Assembly: GCA_023667265.1 (NCBI GenBank)
Contig: JAMPAJ010000001.1
Location: 266,698 to 330,697, forward strand
DNA length: 64,000 nt
Source: Alistipes sp.
GTDB taxonomy: Bacteria; Bacillota; Clostridia; Oscillospirales; Ruminococcaceae
Reading direction: 5' to 3'
Positions 24,956 through 46,962 of this stretch are shown here, in pieces. Numbering within the stretch: position 1 is the first letter of the stretch; each line of letters starts with the position of its first letter. The translations under genes and the position numbers were made by a program. The notes below the pieces were generated by a model. The model was not told the origin of the DNA and searched no databases. It saw only the letters and a program-made list of their open reading frames with translations.

Positions 24956-24980
24956 TGTCCGGCAACTCACATCAAATAAT

Positions 24981-25088
24981 CTGCAACTGGCTGTCATACT
25001 TTTCGGATCGTTCTCTGTCCGAGATATCCGGTAAGGCTTAGACCCTGCAGCTTTGCGTCCTTACTTTTCAATAAGTTTGCCAAGAATT
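24981..25088 (-). ncRNA. Cyclic di-GMP-I (GEMM-I) riboswitch
   Basis: On the minus strand the sequence reads GGCAAACTTATTGAAAAGTA, then AGGACGCAAAGCTG, AGGGTCTAAG, and the 3' part GTATGACAGCCAGTTGC. These match the conserved blocks of clostridial GEMM-I aptamers: the GGCAAAC start, the first hairpin (CTTA/TAAG) with GAAA loop, GGACGCAAAGC, GGGTCTAAG and the closing GACAGCCAGGTTGC-like block. GCTG pairs with CAGC to form the second helix. It lies about 130 bases upstream of the M60 gene and downstream of its promoter, so the secreted pair is controlled by c-di-GMP. Confidence 0.92.
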
Positions 25089-25135
25089 TTTTTGGAAGCA
25101 TCTTGCATTTCTCTGTGTGCCGTCCTTATAATCCT

Positions 25136-38103: not shown

Positions 38104-39363
38104 TTACTTTAAAACGGCAACGTCCCGGAGACTGCGGTTTATAGCGTCAGTTCTCGTGCCCACAAGCTTTTCCAGCTCCTTGTCCGCGAGTCTGAGCCGG
38201 TTTCTTGCAGAGTTAAGCACCTCCTCAAAGGACTGGAACTCCGCCTTGGCAGACTCTAATATCTTCCAGACCTCTCCACTCTTTTTCTGTATCGCCAGCG
38301 TCCGGAAGCCCATTTGCAGGCTGTTCAGCATTGCCGCCATTGTGGACGGACCGGCGATATTCACTTTGTAGTCGCGCTGGAGGACTTCCACAAGCCCCAT
38401 ATTCACGACCTCGGCGTAAAGTCCCTCAAAGGGCAGGAACATAACGGCGAAATCCGTGGTATACGGCGGACGTATGTACTTTTCGGCTATGCTCTTTGCG
38501 CATCTTTTCATTTCGGCGTCGAGGGCGGATCTGCGTTGTTTAAGCTGTACCGGATCGCCGCTTTCGTATGCCTCGTTGAGATTTGCGTAGGTGTCTCCGG
38601 GAAATTTCGAATCTATGGGAAGATATACCGGAGAACCGGATTCAGCACCGGGAAGCCTTACCGCAAAGTCCACCCGTTCCCTTGCACCGGGCACAAGGGC
38701 GACCTGCTCGCCGTACTGCTCCGGGGCGAGGATTTCGCTTAAAATAGCTGAAAGCTGCAGCTCGCCCATAATTCCGCGGGTCTTTACGTTTGACAAAACG
38801 CTTTTCAGGTCGGAGACTCCGGAGGCGACAGCCTTCATCTCGCCGAGACCTGCATAGACCTCCGCAAGCCGCTGGTTGACGGCTTCAAATGATTGGGAAA
38901 TTCTGTCATTCAGAGTTTTTTGCAGCTTTTCATTGACAGTGTTGTTGATCCTGTCAAGGCTTTCACGGTTTTCCCTGGATATACGCTCCATGCTTTCAAT
39001 ATTGGCACATCGTATTTTGTCGAGACTTTCCCGGTTTTCGCTGCTGAGATTTTTCATATCCGCTTCGATCTTTTGAAGAATATCCGCAGAACGGCTCTGC
39101 TGGGATTCTATAGAGCTGCGGAGCTCGCCGCCAAGTGCGGACAGCTGGTTGACCATAGATTCTCCGTTTATAGAGGTCTGCTCCAGGATAAGACGTGTGC
39201 GGCTGTCGGAGGTCTGCCGCAGTATCTCCATCTGCTTTTTCAGCTCCAGGAGCTCCTTTTTTCCGGAATTGTTTTTCGTCTGCGCAATTTTCAGTACGAG
39301 CATAAGCAGAAGTATGAGAAGTCCCAGCCCTGCTACACCTGTTATAAGCTGTAAAATATCCAT
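38104..39363 (-). CDS. rmuC: DNA recombination protein RmuC
   Basis: A 419-residue protein: one N-terminal membrane anchor (about 5-27), a long coiled coil (about 30-180) and the RmuC nuclease-like domain (about 190-400). SVLSNVKTRGIMGELQL, VDFAVRLPG, LPIDSKFPGDTYANL and FLPFEGLYAEV are characteristic. RmuC limits inversion of short inverted repeats in E. coli, which is notable next to so many such repeats. AAAGGTG precedes the ATG at 39363; an upstream extension to 39426 crosses the -10 box. Confidence 0.94.
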   Translation of the reverse strand: MDILQLITGVAGLGLLILLLMLVLKIAQTKNNSGKKELLELKKQMEILRQTSDSRTRLILEQTSINGESMVNQLSALGGELRSSIESQQSRSADILQKIEADMKNLSSENRESLDKIRCANIESMERISRENRESLDRINNTVNEKLQKTLNDRISQSFEAVNQRLAEVYAGLGEMKAVASGVSDLKSVLSNVKTRGIMGELQLSAILSEILAPEQYGEQVALVPGARERVDFAVRLPGAESGSPVYLPIDSKFPGDTYANLNEAYESGDPVQLKQRRSALDAEMKRCAKSIAEKYIRPPYTTDFAVMFLPFEGLYAEVVNMGLVEVLQRDYKVNIAGPSTMAAMLNSLQMGFRTLAIQKKSGEVWKILESAKAEFQSFEEVLNSARNRLRLADKELEKLVGTRTDAINRSLRDVAVLK

Positions 39364-39397: not shown

Positions 39398-39426
39398 ATT
39401 ATAGCATATAATTGGCAAATTTGCAA
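39398..39426 (-). promoter_or_regulatory. Promoter of rmuC, overlapping family E element
   Basis: Minus strand TTGCAA (39421-39426), 17 bases, TATAAT (39398-39403). The -35 box is the edge of the family E element. Confidence 0.8.
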
Positions 39427-39491
39427 CCCACGCGGAAATAAATTACGATTAAAAATTTTTCAACGCGAACTCGCCGGCGGAGGCTCTCCGC
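39421..39491. repeat. Family E structured element, copy 1
   Basis: Blocks TTGCAACCCACGCGGAAA (39421), ACGCGAAC (39463) and hairpin GCGGAG-GCT-CTCCGC (39477-39491). The copy at 44234 has the same blocks with exactly the same spacing (42 and 14 bases), while the hairpin stem bases differ in a compensating way. Confidence 0.75.
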
Positions 39492-39564
39492 TTATAGCAT
39501 ATAAACCGTGAAAATGCAACATTATCGTTGAAAAAATATATGCTGAAATTTCTCTTTACAATTA

Positions 39565-39593
39565 TTGCAATTCCACGTTTTTTGTGATATAAT
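39565..39593 (+). promoter_or_regulatory. Promoter of the PHP phosphatase gene
   Basis: TTGCAA at 39565-39570, a 17-base spacer and TATAAT at 39588-39593; GGAGGT follows about 25 bases later. Confidence 0.8.
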
Positions 39594-39632
39594 TATTAAT
39601 GAAATTAATTTGAGTATATGGAGGTCTTGTAA

Positions 39633-40403
39633 ATGCTTGCAAATTATCATACGCATACACGGCGCTGCAAACACGCCGAGGGCAGCGACCGGGAATTTAT
39701 CGAAGCTGCTGTCTCACACGGTATGAAGGTGCTCGGCTTTTCCGATCACTGTCCGTGGATATTCGATGACGGCTATGTTTCGGGAACACGTATGCTTCCC
39801 TCGGATTTAGACGGCTACTTTTCATCGCTGACCGACCTGAAAAAGGAGTATGCCGGGGATATTACAATATATATCGGATTTGAGGCTGAATATATCCCGG
39901 AGCTTATGGAGAAGCAGAATAAGCTGCTTGCGGATTATCCCGTGGAATATATGATAATGGGTCAGCATTTCACACATCCGGAGGCTAATGCGCCGTTTAC
40001 CGGCTTTGCTACAACTTCTGAGGCAGAATTGGCGGAGTATGTTGAGCTTGTCATACAGGGACTTGAAACGGGAAAATATAAGTATGTGGCACATCCCGAC
40101 CTGATGAATTACGTTGGAGACGACGATATATACGTTCGCCACTACAGCAGACTTTGCAGATATCTTGCGTCGCGGGATATCCCTGTGGAGATAAACCTCC
40201 TCGGCGTAAAGGAGGGCAGGCACTATACGAGCGAAAAGTTTTTGAAAATAGCCGCAGAAGCCGGAAATACGGCAATAATCGGCTGCGACGCTCATTATCC
40301 GCCGTTTCTCACAGATACCGCAGCAATGGAGAAATGCCGCAGACTTGCCGAAAAATTCTCTCTGAAGCTCGTAGATTATCTTCCCGGTCTTGAACCGCGA
40401 TAA
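39633..40403 (+). CDS. PHP-domain phosphoesterase, histidinol-phosphatase type
   Basis: A 256-residue metal-dependent phosphatase. The metal ligands are visible in NYHTHTRRCKHAEG, FSDHCPW, GFEAEYIP, GQHF, VAHPDL and IIGCDAHYP, the full set of the HisK-type PHP family. Length fits histidinol phosphatase (HisK/HisJ), the penultimate step of histidine synthesis, but no his genes are near, so a wider phosphoesterase role is possible. The ATG at 39633 follows GGAGGTCTTGTAA. Confidence 0.88.
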   Translation: MLANYHTHTRRCKHAEGSDREFIEAAVSHGMKVLGFSDHCPWIFDDGYVSGTRMLPSDLDGYFSSLTDLKKEYAGDITIYIGFEAEYIPELMEKQNKLLADYPVEYMIMGQHFTHPEANAPFTGFATTSEAELAEYVELVIQGLETGKYKYVAHPDLMNYVGDDDIYVRHYSRLCRYLASRDIPVEINLLGVKEGRHYTSEKFLKIAAEAGNTAIIGCDAHYPPFLTDTAAMEKCRRLAEKFSLKLVDYLPGLEPR

Positions 40404-40438
40404 GAGCGGCTGTCAGATATTGTTCTAATAAATTGCTC

Positions 40439-40467
40439 TTGACATCTCGCACAAATGCTGTTATAAT
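40439..40467 (+). promoter_or_regulatory. Consensus promoter of the P-type ATPase gene
   Basis: TTGACA at 40439-40444, exactly 17 bases and TATAAT at 40462-40467, a full match to the sigma-A consensus; AAGGAGAG follows at 40485. Confidence 0.95.
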
Positions 40468-40498
40468 AGAGCAAACAAACTTTTGAAGGAGAGAAAAA

Positions 40499-43144
40499 AT
40501 GAACTATTTCAATCAGGATCAGGAATCTGTACTGAAAAGTCTCGGGACGACCCGTGAAAATGGTCTGACTGATTCTCAGGTAACTGAAAGCCGCGAAAAA
40601 TACGGCGAAAACGTCATATCAGAGGAAAAATCCAAGAGCCTGCTTACGATTTTCCTGGAGCAGTTTGCGGATCTGCTGGTAATAATTCTCATCGCAGCAT
40701 CCGTCGTTTCTATGATAAGCGGCGAAATCGGCTCTACCATCGTAATTCTGGTGGTTCTGGTCATGAACGCCGTTCTGGGTACAGTCCAGAATGTCAAGGC
40801 GCAGAAATCCCTGGCAAGCCTTAAAGCTATGGGTTCTCCCAATGCCAGAGTTATAAGAAACGGCGAACAGTGCGAAATTCCTGCAAGCGAGGTCGTTGTT
40901 GGAGATATTCTGCTTATCGAAGCCGGAAACGTTGCCGCAGCCGACGGACGGCTACTTGAAGCGGCTTCATTGCAGGTCGATGAAAGCGCGCTGACCGGAG
41001 AATCGCTGTCAGTTACCAAGTCTACGGATACTATCACCGGCGAGGAGGTCGCCCTGGGAGACCGTGTGAATATGATATACTCCGGCTCAAACGTTTCAAA
41101 CGGACGTGCCGTTGCAGTTGTTACAGGCGTCGGCATGAATACGGAGATCGGAAAGATAGCCTCGCTCATGCAGAGCGCAAAGAAAAAGAAAACGCCTTTG
41201 CAGGTGAGCCTGGACAAGTTCAGCACGATCCTCTCATTTGCGGTCATCGGAATTTGTATCGTGGTATTTTTCATGACATGGCTCATCAACGATAAAGAGC
41301 CGGTGGACGCCATGATGTTCGCTGTAGCGCTGGCTGTTGCGGCTATTCCGGAGGCGCTCAGCTCGATCATCACTATTTCGCTTGCTATCGGCACGCAGAA
41401 AATGTCGAAGCAGAAGGCTATTATAAAAGACCTGAAGGCTGTCGAGGGGCTGGGCTGCGTTTCAATAATATGCTCGGATAAGACCGGAACGCTGACTCAG
41501 AACAAGATGACCGTACGCGATCTGACATATCCCTCTGAGGCGGCGAAAAATGAGCTGCTTCTCGCTATGGCTCTCTGCAACGACGCTGCAATGGCTGAAA
41601 ACGGCTGGCTTGGCGACCCTACTGAAACTGCGCTGTCGGATTACCTTGGAAACGACGAGTATATGCGTATCAGAACAGATCTGCCCCGTCTTGACGAGCT
41701 GCCCTTTGACAGCGACAGAAAGCTTATGACTACCGTTCATTTCTCCGGCGGCGAGAGATTTGCATATACCAAGGGCGCAGTTGATGTGCTTATGTCCAGG
41801 TTCAGCTTTATTATGGACGATGGCGGTATCCGTCCCATTAACGAGGACGATAGGGTCAATATCAAGGCGGCTAACCTGAACTATTCCAATAACGGTATGC
41901 GTGTTCTTGCCTTTGCAAAGAAAATCCTGAAAAGCGACAGTGCTATCACGCTCCAGGACGAATGCGAATATATCTACATCGGACTGACCGCTATGACCGA
42001 CCCGCCGAGGGAGGAGAGCAAGGCGGCTGTTGCCGAGTGTATTTCTGCCGGTATCAAGCCTATCATGATAACAGGCGACCACAAGCTTACGGCAGTGGCG
42101 ATCGCCAGGGAGATCGGCATATACAAGGACGGCGACATGGCTATGGACGGCAATGAGCTGAACGCCGTTTCGGACGAGGAGCTGGATAAAAAGCTTGATA
42201 AGATCTCCGTTTATGCCCGTGTTTCGCCGGAGCACAAGATACGCATAGTTGACCTGTGGCAGAAGAGAAATAAGGTCGTTTCCATGACTGGCGACGGAGT
42301 AAACGACGCTCCTGCGCTGAAAAAGGCGGATGTGGGCGTTGCAATGGGCATCACCGGAACCGAGGTCTCCAAGGACGCCGCATCTATGATCTTAGCGGAC
42401 GACAATTTCGCGACGATCGTAAAGGCTGTGGCAAACGGACGCTGTATTTACACCAATATCAAGAACGCTATCAAGTTCCTGCTTGCAGGAAATGCGGCGG
42501 CTATTATCGTTGTTCTACTGACTACAGTCCTCAATTTGCCGCTGCCCTTTAATCCGGTACATCTTCTTTTCATAAATCTTCTGACGGATTCTCTCCCGGC
42601 GCTTGCATTGTGCATGGAGCCGATGCTCCCGGATGTTATGAAGAGCAAGCCTCGTTCCTCCGACGAGTCTATTCTCAACAAGGAAACGTCGGTCTATATT
42701 GTGATACACTCGGTCATGATCGCAGCCTGCGTTATGGCAGCCTTTATGTTCGGCAAAAATTCCAGCGCCGACCCTGTTGTTTCAGCAGGAATGGCAAGCA
42801 CAATGGCATTCGCAACGCTGTGCCTGGCACGTCTTTTCGAGGGCTTTGACAGCCGCGGAAGGTACTCTCTTGCACGTCTGAAGATCATGACAAACAAATT
42901 TTCTCTCGGCGCATTCGGAATAGGTCTGGTTCTTCTTCTGGCTGTTCTGATGATTCCCGGCTGCCACGGATTCATGAAAATTGACGATGCTTTCGGCTGG
43001 ATGAATCTGCTCCAGGTAGTTGGTCTTGCGTTTATTCCCTTTGCCCTTACTCAGCTTGTGAGAATGATACGCGAATCATCCAAGTGGTACGGAATATTAA
43101 AGTACAGCAAGGATCTTTTCGGCAATAGATCAAATGAAAAGTAA
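40499..43144 (+). CDS. P-type calcium-transporting ATPase (PMCA/SERCA type)
   Basis: An 881-residue P2-type cation pump of the cell membrane. Cation-ATPase N-terminal domain 1-70; TGES actuator motif in ALTGESLSV near residue 167; PEAL of the ion site in AAIPEALSSI near 285; the phosphorylated Asp in CSDKTGTLTQNK near 326; hinge TGDGVNDAPALKKADVG near 598; ten hydrophobic segments. The N and D residues of the C-terminal helices (LLFINLLTDSLPALAL) fit calcium transport. It expels calcium using ATP. A single gene with its own consensus promoter and terminator. Confidence 0.94.
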   Translation: MNYFNQDQESVLKSLGTTRENGLTDSQVTESREKYGENVISEEKSKSLLTIFLEQFADLLVIILIAASVVSMISGEIGSTIVILVVLVMNAVLGTVQNVKAQKSLASLKAMGSPNARVIRNGEQCEIPASEVVVGDILLIEAGNVAAADGRLLEAASLQVDESALTGESLSVTKSTDTITGEEVALGDRVNMIYSGSNVSNGRAVAVVTGVGMNTEIGKIASLMQSAKKKKTPLQVSLDKFSTILSFAVIGICIVVFFMTWLINDKEPVDAMMFAVALAVAAIPEALSSIITISLAIGTQKMSKQKAIIKDLKAVEGLGCVSIICSDKTGTLTQNKMTVRDLTYPSEAAKNELLLAMALCNDAAMAENGWLGDPTETALSDYLGNDEYMRIRTDLPRLDELPFDSDRKLMTTVHFSGGERFAYTKGAVDVLMSRFSFIMDDGGIRPINEDDRVNIKAANLNYSNNGMRVLAFAKKILKSDSAITLQDECEYIYIGLTAMTDPPREESKAAVAECISAGIKPIMITGDHKLTAVAIAREIGIYKDGDMAMDGNELNAVSDEELDKKLDKISVYARVSPEHKIRIVDLWQKRNKVVSMTGDGVNDAPALKKADVGVAMGITGTEVSKDAASMILADDNFATIVKAVANGRCIYTNIKNAIKFLLAGNAAAIIVVLLTTVLNLPLPFNPVHLLFINLLTDSLPALALCMEPMLPDVMKSKPRSSDESILNKETSVYIVIHSVMIAACVMAAFMFGKNSSADPVVSAGMASTMAFATLCLARLFEGFDSRGRYSLARLKIMTNKFSLGAFGIGLVLLLAVLMIPGCHGFMKIDDAFGWMNLLQVVGLAFIPFALTQLVRMIRESSKWYGILKYSKDLFGNRSNEK

Positions 43145-43150
43145 GCAATA

Positions 43151-43190
43151 AAAATGAGTTCAAAGGGAATTTTCCTTTGAACTCATTTTT
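43151..43190. terminator. Bidirectional terminator
   Basis: Stem AATGAGTTCAAAGG/CCTTTGAACTCATT around a short A/T loop, followed by T on the plus strand and preceded by A; serves the ATPase gene and the convergent GH25 gene. Confidence 0.92.
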
Positions 43191-43193
43191 TAT

Positions 43194-44174
43194 TTATTCT
43201 GTCGTCGCTTCTGCATTATCTCCCGGAATTGCCGGGTTTTTTTCTGCATAGTCGCGGAAGCAGATATTCAGGTCTACCGCGGCGTCGATACCAGGAACCG
43301 TGCCCTCCGACGAGTACTGCCAGATGTCATATTCGTAGTAAAACGACGGAAAACTGCTGAACTCCGCGAGCCAGAATTCATAGTCCCTGACTCTCGGCAG
43401 ATCGAGCTTATTCATCGCCGTTGAAGTGTTCTGGTAGATCATGGGCGTATATCCGGCTGACTTTACTCTTTCGCAGAATGCCACGCAGCAGTCCGCAAGA
43501 GTCTCCACGGAAACCGAATCGGTGCGAGCCTGGTCGTTATATACGAGCTCCCAGTCAAACGCCACGGGATATGTAATGTCGTAGCCTTCGATCGCGTCCA
43601 GAACCGCGTCAGCCTCCTCTATAGCTTCGTCGGTATTCACCGCCTGGGAGTAAAAATACACGCCTACGTCGATACCTGCCGCCGACGCGCCCTCAAGGTT
43701 TGTGTGAAGATTGCTGTCGATCGTGATAAGTCCTCCGCCGTATGACCTGTAGCCCACGCGCACAAAGGCAAAATCCACACCAGCCTCCTTGACCTGCTGC
43801 CAGTCGATATCACCCTGGTGCTCGGAAATGTCGATGCCGACAAATGAGGAAAGACCGCCGCTTCCGTTATACCTTATAAATCCGTCAGCGTCCTTTTTCA
43901 GGTCGTTTACAGTAACGGCGCTTGCCGGAACATCGGCATAGACCGGGATAAAGGTCTCGCCCATAGTGCTGTTGTGGAGGAGTATCTTTCTGCCGTCCAT
44001 CTGATAGAAGGTCTCCTCCTTTTCTATGACAGGTCTCACTCTTGTCTGCGGCTTGGCTGATGCCGGTACAGATCTGTTGCGGACTGCCATAAATCCGATT
44101 ATTATAATAAGTATCAGGATAACTACAGCCTCGGCAGCGGAAATAACCTTCAGTCCTTTTCTGTTTATTTTCAT
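43194..44174 (-). CDS. GH25 lysozyme, membrane-anchored
   Basis: A 326-residue muramidase. Residues 9-30 are a hydrophobic signal anchor, then a linker and small beta region to about residue 108, then the GH25 barrel: FVGIDISEHQGDIDWQQV with the catalytic Asp, FAFVRVGYRSYGGG, and VAFDWELVYND with the catalytic Asp/Glu pair, ending DIWQYSSEGTVPGIDAAVDL. It cuts the MurNAc-GlcNAc bond of peptidoglycan. AAAGGAG precedes the ATG. The promoter lies in the family E element upstream. Confidence 0.93.
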   Translation of the reverse strand: MKINRKGLKVISAAEAVVILILIIIIGFMAVRNRSVPASAKPQTRVRPVIEKEETFYQMDGRKILLHNSTMGETFIPVYADVPASAVTVNDLKKDADGFIRYNGSGGLSSFVGIDISEHQGDIDWQQVKEAGVDFAFVRVGYRSYGGGLITIDSNLHTNLEGASAAGIDVGVYFYSQAVNTDEAIEEADAVLDAIEGYDITYPVAFDWELVYNDQARTDSVSVETLADCCVAFCERVKSAGYTPMIYQNTSTAMNKLDLPRVRDYEFWLAEFSSFPSFYYEYDIWQYSSEGTVPGIDAAVDLNICFRDYAEKNPAIPGDNAEATTE

Positions 44175-44210
44175 TTATTAGTCTCCTTTGGTACAGTAAT
44201 ATATATATAT

Positions 44211-44239
44211 ATTTTATCATATAAATTGCAAAATTGCAA
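44211..44239 (-). promoter_or_regulatory. Promoter of the GH25 gene, overlapping family E element
   Basis: Minus strand TTGCAA (44234-44239), 17 bases, TAAAAT (44211-44216). The arrangement relative to the family E blocks is the same as at rmuC. Confidence 0.75.
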
Positions 44240-44304
44240 CCCACGCGGAAAAAATTTCCGTTGATATTAATTTTTACGCGAACTTGACAGCGGGTGCTAC
44301 CCGC
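44234..44304. repeat. Family E structured element, copy 2
   Basis: Blocks TTGCAACCCACGCGGAAA (44234), ACGCGAAC (44276) and hairpin GCGGGT-GCT-ACCCGC (44290-44304). Compare GCGGAG-GCT-CTCCGC at 39477: two stem pairs differ in both arms so that pairing is kept. Confidence 0.75.
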
Positions 44305-44307
44305 CGC

Positions 44308-44336
44308 TTGAAATTTCAGTAAAAAAGTGATATAAT
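44308..44336 (+). promoter_or_regulatory. Promoter of the DUF3877 gene
   Basis: TTGAAA at 44308-44313, 17 bases and TATAAT at 44331-44336. Confidence 0.85.
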
Positions 44337-46191: not shown

Positions 46192-46767
46192 TTACGTCCT
46201 TCCTCTGCTTCTCTTCAGCTTGTCAAGCTGAGCTGCAAACGCCTTGTTGGAGATAAGCATATATATCGCTGTCACCTCGATAACACCGATGGCGATGTAC
46301 GTTGGTATCCGCCATGCAAGAATTTTGAACGGCGTTCCGTAGTAAAGCCGGAGACCTATGGATTTGATTATCATAGAACCGAGAATGTGCGAAGAATAGA
46401 CCGATGCGATAACAGAAACGATGTCGGGAGCTTTTTTCAGCAGGGCTGCAAGAAGTCCGGATGAAAAGCCGATGGTAAATGCGCCGAGGGTAATGAAGGG
46501 ATTGATGGCATATCCTTTAAGGAGACAGCCTATAAGGTCGGCGGCTGCTCCGACTGCTCCGCCCACGAAAGGGCCGAAGAAAATTCCGGACATGATCACC
46601 GGAGTATTTTCCAGGCTTATGCGGATATTGTCGCCGATAGGTATCTGCATATACTTTCCGAGAACGATGCTCAGGGCTATGAAAAGTCCCGAAACTATCA
46701 TAACGCGGAGATTGCCGAAAAGTCGTATGCTTCCGGTAAGCTTGTTTTTTGCTGTGCTTGTTGTCAT
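46192..46767 (-). CDS. folT: Folate ECF transporter S component
   Basis: A 191-residue membrane protein with six hydrophobic segments that binds folate and works with the shared EcfAA'T module (not in the window). VSGLFIALSIVLGKYMQIP, NTPVIMSGIFFGPFVGG and GCLLKGYAINPFITLGA fit the FolT family. AAAGGAGG before the ATG lies inside the switching hairpin of the THF riboswitch. Followed at once by folC. Confidence 0.92.
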   Translation of the reverse strand: MTTSTAKNKLTGSIRLFGNLRVMIVSGLFIALSIVLGKYMQIPIGDNIRISLENTPVIMSGIFFGPFVGGAVGAAADLIGCLLKGYAINPFITLGAFTIGFSSGLLAALLKKAPDIVSVIASVYSSHILGSMIIKSIGLRLYYGTPFKILAWRIPTYIAIGVIEVTAIYMLISNKAFAAQLDKLKRSRGRT

Positions 46768-46829
46768 AAAAAAACCTCCTTTTCCACATCATAGGACAAG
46801 AAGGTTCTAAAAGCCTGGTTATGTCATAT

Positions 46830-46936
46830 GAAGCGGGATGCAAAATGTGAACCGCAAGGCAAATGTACATCAGCCTTTTCGTCCCGGTGACAACTCCCCG
46901 TTCACCAGGCACTTCACGAACACATTTTTACTCTTC
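46830..46936 (-). ncRNA. Tetrahydrofolate (THF-I) riboswitch
   Basis: Minus strand blocks GGTGAACGGGGAGTTGTCACC, GGACGAAAAGG and TTGCATCCCGC align with the conserved GUGUGAAUGGGAUGUCGUCACAC, ACGAAGCG and UUGCAUCCGC blocks of the Clostridia THF aptamer in the same order. AAAATGTG near the 5' end pairs with CACATTTT near the 3' end, and GAAG with CTTC closes the structure. Downstream, AACCTTCTT can pair with the ribosome binding region AAGGAGGTT, followed by seven T, so folate binding can shut off folT translation or transcription. Confidence 0.9.
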
Positions 46937-46962
46937 AACGCAGGATCTCTCCTGCATGACCC

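Follow-up and report, generated by a model that had tools for sequence, protein, structure and literature searches.

Two promoter regions in the window analysed here, a stretch of 64,000 nucleotides, share a module of fixed internal spacing ahead of two different genes, rmuC and a GH25 gene, and the question is what such a module is and how it came to stand at both places. A sequence-only reading of the window had offered three answers: a binding site for a regulator, a small RNA, or a structured, promoter-bearing mobile element. We propose, with a probability of about 0.8, that the module is a copy of a short non-coding, non-autonomous mobile element, which inserts into -10 boxes, duplicates the box, brings a new -35 box and thereby splits the native promoter. 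In the following, the source genome is the one from which the window is taken.

Results

The two modules in the window

Both modules consist of an 18-mer, a box and a hairpin with a GCT loop, and their coordinates (Table 1) bear out the claim of identical spacings, 42 and 14 bases, in the two copies. When up to three mismatches to the 18-mer are allowed, the window contains two matches; 0.05 would be expected, and not one of 100 shuffles gives as many. The outer edge, TTGCAA, had been taken as the -35 box of the leftward rmuC and GH25 genes, and this agrees with the promoters predicted on the minus strand, in which TTGCAA is followed after 17 bp by TATAAT (copy 1) or TAAAAT (copy 2), with an extended -10 TG. 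The core described at first is real, but its left limit had been drawn too short, as the unit runs on through the -10 box of each gene. Rightward promoters are indeed predicted next to both copies; they lie, however, outside the unit and form no part of the module. The paired, divergent arrangement in which the module had been described is thus incidental, the leftward promoter alone belonging to it. The window has three Rfam matches, none of them at either module. Elsewhere in the window, on the minus strand, there are a THF riboswitch (46829-46937, 83.4 bits) upstream of a small membrane-protein-like ORF (46192-46767) and a c-di-GMP-I riboswitch aptamer (24979-25091, 64.4 bits).

Table 1. 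Coordinates in the window of the two element copies, their parts and the adjoining genes and promoters
Feature	Position	Strand	Remarks
rmuC, downstream of copy 1	38104-39363	-	PF02646, 228.4 bits; the -10 10-mer ends 35 nt from the start codon
Gene-proximal 10-mer target, copy 1 (TATGCTATAA)	39399-39408	-	extended -10 box of rmuC; sequence, promoter prediction
Element copy 1, 83-bp body	39409-39491	-	with CGCG boxes; -35 box TTGCAA at 39421-39426
18-mer TTGCAACCCACGCGGAAA, copy 1	39421-39438		
Box ACGCGAAC, copy 1	39463-39470		
Hairpin GCGGAG-GCT-CTCCGC, copy 1	39477-39491		
Distal 10-mer, copy 1 (TATGCTATAA)	39492-39501	-	next base is the hairpin G, not T
Remnant of an older, decayed unit, upstream of copy 1	39502-39527	-	spacer and -35 box still recognisable; score 25.5 against 41 for the proximal unit
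Predicted rightward promoter near copy 1	39565-39593	+	outside the unit
GH25 gene, downstream of copy 2	43194-44174	-	PF01183, 114.8 bits
Gene-proximal 10-mer, copy 2 (TATGATAAAA)	44212-44221	-	-10 box of the GH25 promoter; sequence, promoter prediction
Element copy 2, 83-bp body	44222-44304	-	-35 box TTGCAA at 44234-44239; distal 10-mer not recognisable at the far end
18-mer, copy 2	44234-44251		
Box of the ACGCGAAC type, copy 2	44276-44283		
Hairpin GCGGGT-GCT-ACCCGC, copy 2	44290-44304		
Predicted rightward promoter near copy 2	44308-44336	+	outside the unit

Copy number and range

The 18-mer has 53 matches genome-wide at two mismatches or fewer, against 0 for its reversed control. A covariance model built from 34 source-genome units gave 133 matches in the source genome. 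The later counts use only 121 of them, those with E of about 2e-3 or better; as 150 of 1,515 candidates were scored, the number is a lower bound. Further copies with the layout kept, on which the idea of a selected structure had been made to depend, thus amount to at least 121 units, and the spacing is not lost among them. The units were grouped into 98 strand-resolved clusters, a small number overlapping a cluster on the other strand. More copies are probably missing from the assembly, since it is divided into 45 contigs, several of which end inside elements. At one locus (L247, G000:C11:800486-802529) an array of TGTGCTATAA units meets a stretch of N, with another unit beyond; this is probably a longer array that collapsed during assembly.

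Within the genus, judged to be Ruminococcus, 43 of 125 genomes, the source included, match the first model at E 1e-6 or better. Among 396 genomes sampled from the family, the genus model has matches in eight, five of them from this genus (again including the source) and the other three with single weak matches in two other genera (g108 and g90). The loci concerned there (L307, L308 and L309) carry a related promoter repeat of like layout, with a different hairpin and different boxes, such as CCGGGCAGTGCCCGG in L308 and L309. For other species the copy numbers are minimum values, with 31 (first model) and 10 (genus model) candidates scored per genome. Body identity is 0.82 between different source-genome loci (208 pairs), 0.69 from these to other species (651 pairs) and 0.72 to the one unit used from the sister species G018 (see below).

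Layout of the unit and its hairpin

Read in promoter orientation, the unit is an outward sigma-70 promoter with a TTGCA-type -35 box, 17 bp and TGnTATAAT. The body behind it, about 83 bp long, contains the hairpin and two CGCG boxes. The consensus, drawn from 36 aligned units of the source genome and other genus genomes, runs from TATGnTATAA through the hairpin GCGGnGAGCCnCCGC, a TTTCGCG box, an AT-rich middle, a CCGCG box, the TTGC -35 box and the spacer to TATGnTATAAT. The body is enclosed by two copies of TATGnTATAA, an extended -10 box, in 34 of the 98 clusters; in the remaining 64 the distal 10-mer is not recognisable. Many copies are truncated, are longer variants or lie at contig ends. 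Longer modular variants with an extra hairpin block around CACGTGACCGCGAGTACCTCGCTGAT and variants of it are seen at L246, L267, L271 and L237 of the source genome, and a block of this type also adjoins other units (L002, L027).

The compensating changes of the hairpin arms, first noticed between the two window copies, recur across the genus. Over the same 36 units, 29 cells are altered on both sides and 98.6% of the cells of the whole structure are paired, and for each value none of 500 shuffles is as high. The both-side changes are restricted to two of ten pairs (14/22 and 15/21), and neither the number of pairs so changed nor the number of pair types exceeds the shuffles, 442 and 418 of 500 being as high. 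Helix 2, the stem between the CGCG boxes, hardly varies and is therefore neutral as to structure there. As in MITEs, the repeat is short and non-coding, with many dispersed copies; terminal inverted repeats are absent, one end being the hairpin and the other the -35 box and spacer, and the two ends of the consensus are non-complementary by eye.

A predicted promoter ahead of diverse genes

TATAAT closes 84 of the 98 clusters, and the -35 box is TTGCAA in 60, TTGCAT in 18 and TTGCTT in 8. In 82 clusters a start with a Shine-Dalgarno sequence follows within 160 nt downstream (median distance 41); the opposite side has one in 40 of 98. Among the 16 clusters without such a start, four stop at the end of a contig and one meets a stretch of N. 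With a gene start downstream and some 17 bp between the -35 and -10 boxes, the units have the sequence features of sigma-70 promoters and may be predicted to act as such. Seven of the driven genes could be named, coding for RmuC, GH25, SmpB, a GATase protein, Met-tRNA synthetase, type III pantothenate kinase and a radical-SAM protein, and they are so diverse that no common pathway is apparent.

The 10-mer is coupled between the two ends

The 10-mer has one variable base. Of 52 units, drawn from several species, 45 carry the same base in their two 10-mers, where 21.1 are expected, and seven do not. These 52, which also served for the body identities given above, are the 55 units extracted, minus L093, L269 and L261, and extraction required the hairpin and two 10-mers with the variable base left unscored. 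Units with no upstream CCGCG box detected agree in 15 of 19 (6.0 expected; none of 20,000 permutations as high), a class that includes flanks resembling older elements; the eight of the 19 flanks that look native by eye agree in seven. Array units with dissimilar flanks (n=8) give a marginal excess, 6 against 3.6 expected (p 0.052). Considering the 21 source-genome units, agreement at the variable base is 0.86 against 0.44 expected; the excess is slight over the six bases upstream and almost absent further out. A coupling that is centred on the 10-mer and fades outwards is more readily explained by a short target duplication than by copying of the whole unit. Together with the filled and empty site described below, it points to a target-site duplication of about 6-10 bp, as is usual for MITEs. 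The 64 clusters with no recognisable distal 10-mer speak against it.

The same counts bear on another route, in which the unit would excise between its 10-mers as a circle and re-enter another TATGnTATAA by a single crossover, whether site-specific or homology-driven. Such integration would account for the identical flanking boxes, for the lack of terminal inverted repeats and for tandem arrays of mostly 92-94 bp. A crossover, however, predicts one end with the donor variant and one with the target variant, which is contrary to the agreement of the ends just given, and the rare TATGGTAAAA stands at both ends of L058 as TATGTTATAC does at both ends of L059. Ten base pairs are, moreover, short for RecA-type recombination. 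We therefore hold circle integration to be unlikely and keep to insertion of a mobile element with duplication of its target.

Orthologous promoters of a sister species

Among the genus genomes searched, 62 of 125 of which gave an RmuC match, G018 is the closest by this protein (90% identical), and it has no match to the source-genome 18-mer. From the 85 clusters with a predicted gene start, 28 were used as queries, and 21 of the 28 driven genes were found in G018. All 21 orthologous promoters have a -10 box upstream of the gene, as judged by eye, and the sequence further upstream differs; the element model has no match at E 0.01 or better in these loci. Three weak matches, in L294, L295 and L298, score 24-25 bits (E 0.06-0.09); the first two are near the promoter by coordinates, and by eye they have neither the hairpin nor the CGCG boxes. 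The rmuC promoter of G018 is empty, reading TTGATT-17-TATAAT by eye, and a weak match to the element (31.4 bits, E 0.0034) lies in the neighbouring promoter, that of a PHP-domain gene. Between source copies and empty G018 promoters the variable base is the same in only about 9 of 21 cases (by eye), which counts against a duplicated target.

One pair of loci is a clean filled and empty site: source locus L003, with the element taken out, aligns to L285 of G018 at 45.5, where the maximum of 300 shuffles is 12.0, and with the element uncut the matches of its two flanks overlap by 7 bp in G018. The reverse case is less clean. Here G018 is filled, L098 reading TTGACA-17-TATGATATAA, element, TATGATATAAT, and its empty partner in the source genome, L323, reads TTGACT-17-TATAAT with the box GATGATATAAT; the promoter hexamers match, but the joined site does not outscore the shuffles overall (-6.5, the best shuffle reaching -3.0). 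Another dispersed repeat, around GCACCGCACAAAGACCGCC, was noted in promoter and leader regions of both sister species (L322 in the source genome, L289 and L300 in G018), once inside an element (L300).

These loci also allow a regulon to be weighed, in which a regulator would bind the CGCG-centred boxes immediately upstream of the -35 box and the likeness of the copies would come from shared selection and not from mobility. It is in keeping with such a regulon that both the CGCG boxes and the interval separating them from the -35 box are conserved in all 36 aligned units and that most copies resemble working promoters. Yet the hairpin and the AT-rich middle, too, are common to the source loci and differ between species, there is no confident element match at any of the 21 G018 promoters, the flanking 10-mer is coupled between both ends of one unit, and the named genes have no common theme; we thus consider a regulon quite improbable. 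Of the three answers first offered, the small RNA has no Rfam match, and the mobile element is strongly supported by the number of units, by the compensation in the hairpin and by the element-free orthologous promoters of the sister species.

The old promoter and the growth of arrays

The base after the 10-mer is T in 33 of 34 gene-proximal copies and G in 30 of 34 distal copies; thus, most upstream copies read TATAAG and are without the last base of the -10 box. Native-looking -35 boxes are found at 17 bp in the distal flanks of L094 (TTGATA), L058 (TTGAAA), L098 (TTGACA) and L044 (TGGACA). Over 19 distal flanks, taken from the extracted units with only L093 left out, the -35 score is highest at a spacing of 17 (mean 3.11 of 6, against 2.21 at 18), a score that is partly circular and thus supporting only, since some of these flanks are older elements.

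The period in the 34 clusters with a distal 10-mer is 92 bp in 3, 93 in 16, 94 in 13, 97 in 1 and 98 in 1. The gene-proximal stretch is nearer to the consensus than the distal one in 32 of these clusters, with one tie and one exception, a count that is partly trivial wherever the distal flank is native; in the 17 clusters with a distal score above 30, the gene-proximal unit is ahead in 15, with one tie (L015) and one reversal (L060). This polarity agrees with repeated insertion at the gene-proximal -10 box. Local duplication also occurs, as spacer variants are common to the units within arrays L015, L024 and L101. Local tandem duplication of promoters as the sole origin, a minisatellite dispersed by gene conversion only, would explain these shared variants and the frequency of arrays, but it is most improbable in view of single units with native-looking upstream flanks (L058, L094, L098), the clean L003/L285 pair, and an end coupling in source-genome units that is centred on the 10-mer and a few adjoining bases.

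Discussion

One part of the proposed mobile element can be read directly from its sequence: the gene-proximal end is TATGnTATAAT, and 17 bp upstream of this end the body brings a -35 box of the TTGCA type. We propose the following course for the rest. The target would be the -10 box of a sigma-70 promoter already in place; the element would enter it in a single orientation, and the box would be duplicated. The native -35 box would then be stranded beyond the distal copy, whose final -10 base would now be G (TATAAG), and the native promoter would be split, making the gene dependent on the element. A new insertion would hit the sole intact -10 box, the gene-proximal one, which would give rise to tandem arrays, mostly of 92-94-bp period, whose older units would decay outwards.

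The location in -10 boxes has two possible causes: the enzyme may seek such boxes, or selection may keep such insertions only. As a tentative and rather doubtful extension, the machinery might recognise the sigma-70 extended -10 box, or the promoter melted by RNA polymerase, so that the element would be a transcription-guided "promoter parasite", made indispensable by the splitting, whose arrays would grow gene-proximally as CRISPR arrays do at the leader. A search for a mobilising enzyme or transposase of the element, by way of Y1 transposases and of longer copies with the same distal end, found none. Distal-end matches in the source genome number 49, of which 37 have the TATAAG junction; 36 of these are within the 121 short units and the remaining one is at a contig edge, and no autonomous copy is seen among the 49. 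A REP/REPIN system with its RAYT transposase was rejected, as the Y1 transposase (PF01797) is absent from all five element-bearing genomes, two of them 87% complete, and present in 5 of 14 control genomes.

The element is a variety of promoter-carrying MITE-like repeats. Hybrid promoters made by insertion sequences, in which the inserted end gives a -35 box to a resident -10 box, join the same two parts; these are, however, occasional outcomes of larger, transposase-encoding elements, whereas in the present element the arrangement is the standard one. Putative mobile promoters are likewise near-identical promoter stretches upstream of unrelated genes; to our knowledge they have no shared target box or duplication, and the exact phrase "putative mobile promoters" gave no match in the open-access literature searched. 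MIRU, BOX and RUP are small intergenic repeats, some of them modular or tandem, and MIRU targets the start and stop signals of translation. The target of RUP is TA (PMC2229807). Compared with MIRU and RUP, the present element has a transcription signal as its target.

Correia elements and neisserial MITEs, as described in PMC10969869 and PMC2229807, are short non-coding dispersed repeats that often lie directly upstream of genes and have sigma-70-like promoters, and the present element resembles them in each of these respects. In the same accounts most such repeats have terminal inverted repeats and TA ends; our element has neither and sits in a -10 box. YPAL/RU-2 of Yersinia likewise lacks TA ends, has inverted repeats internally and duplicates its target (PMC2229807). 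YPAL/RU-2 differs in its duplications of 3-26 bp and in targets at or near dyad symmetry, and the passage on it does not speak of promoter targets (PMC2229807). The open-access literature searched, to the extent of its accessible text, yielded no description of the same element or of a promoter-box-targeting repeat in Ruminococcus.

If our reading is right, it raises the question of which enzyme targets -10 boxes. About 80-100 ordinary genes of one species, RmuC, SmpB and Met-tRNA synthetase among them, would use promoters delivered by a repeat, and many of these promoters would have been acquired after the split from the sister species. This would be a concrete case of wholesale promoter replacement in which the genes themselves are unchanged. 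As imprecise removal would strip the gene of its promoter, the element would also serve as a model of a selfish sequence that is hard to lose.
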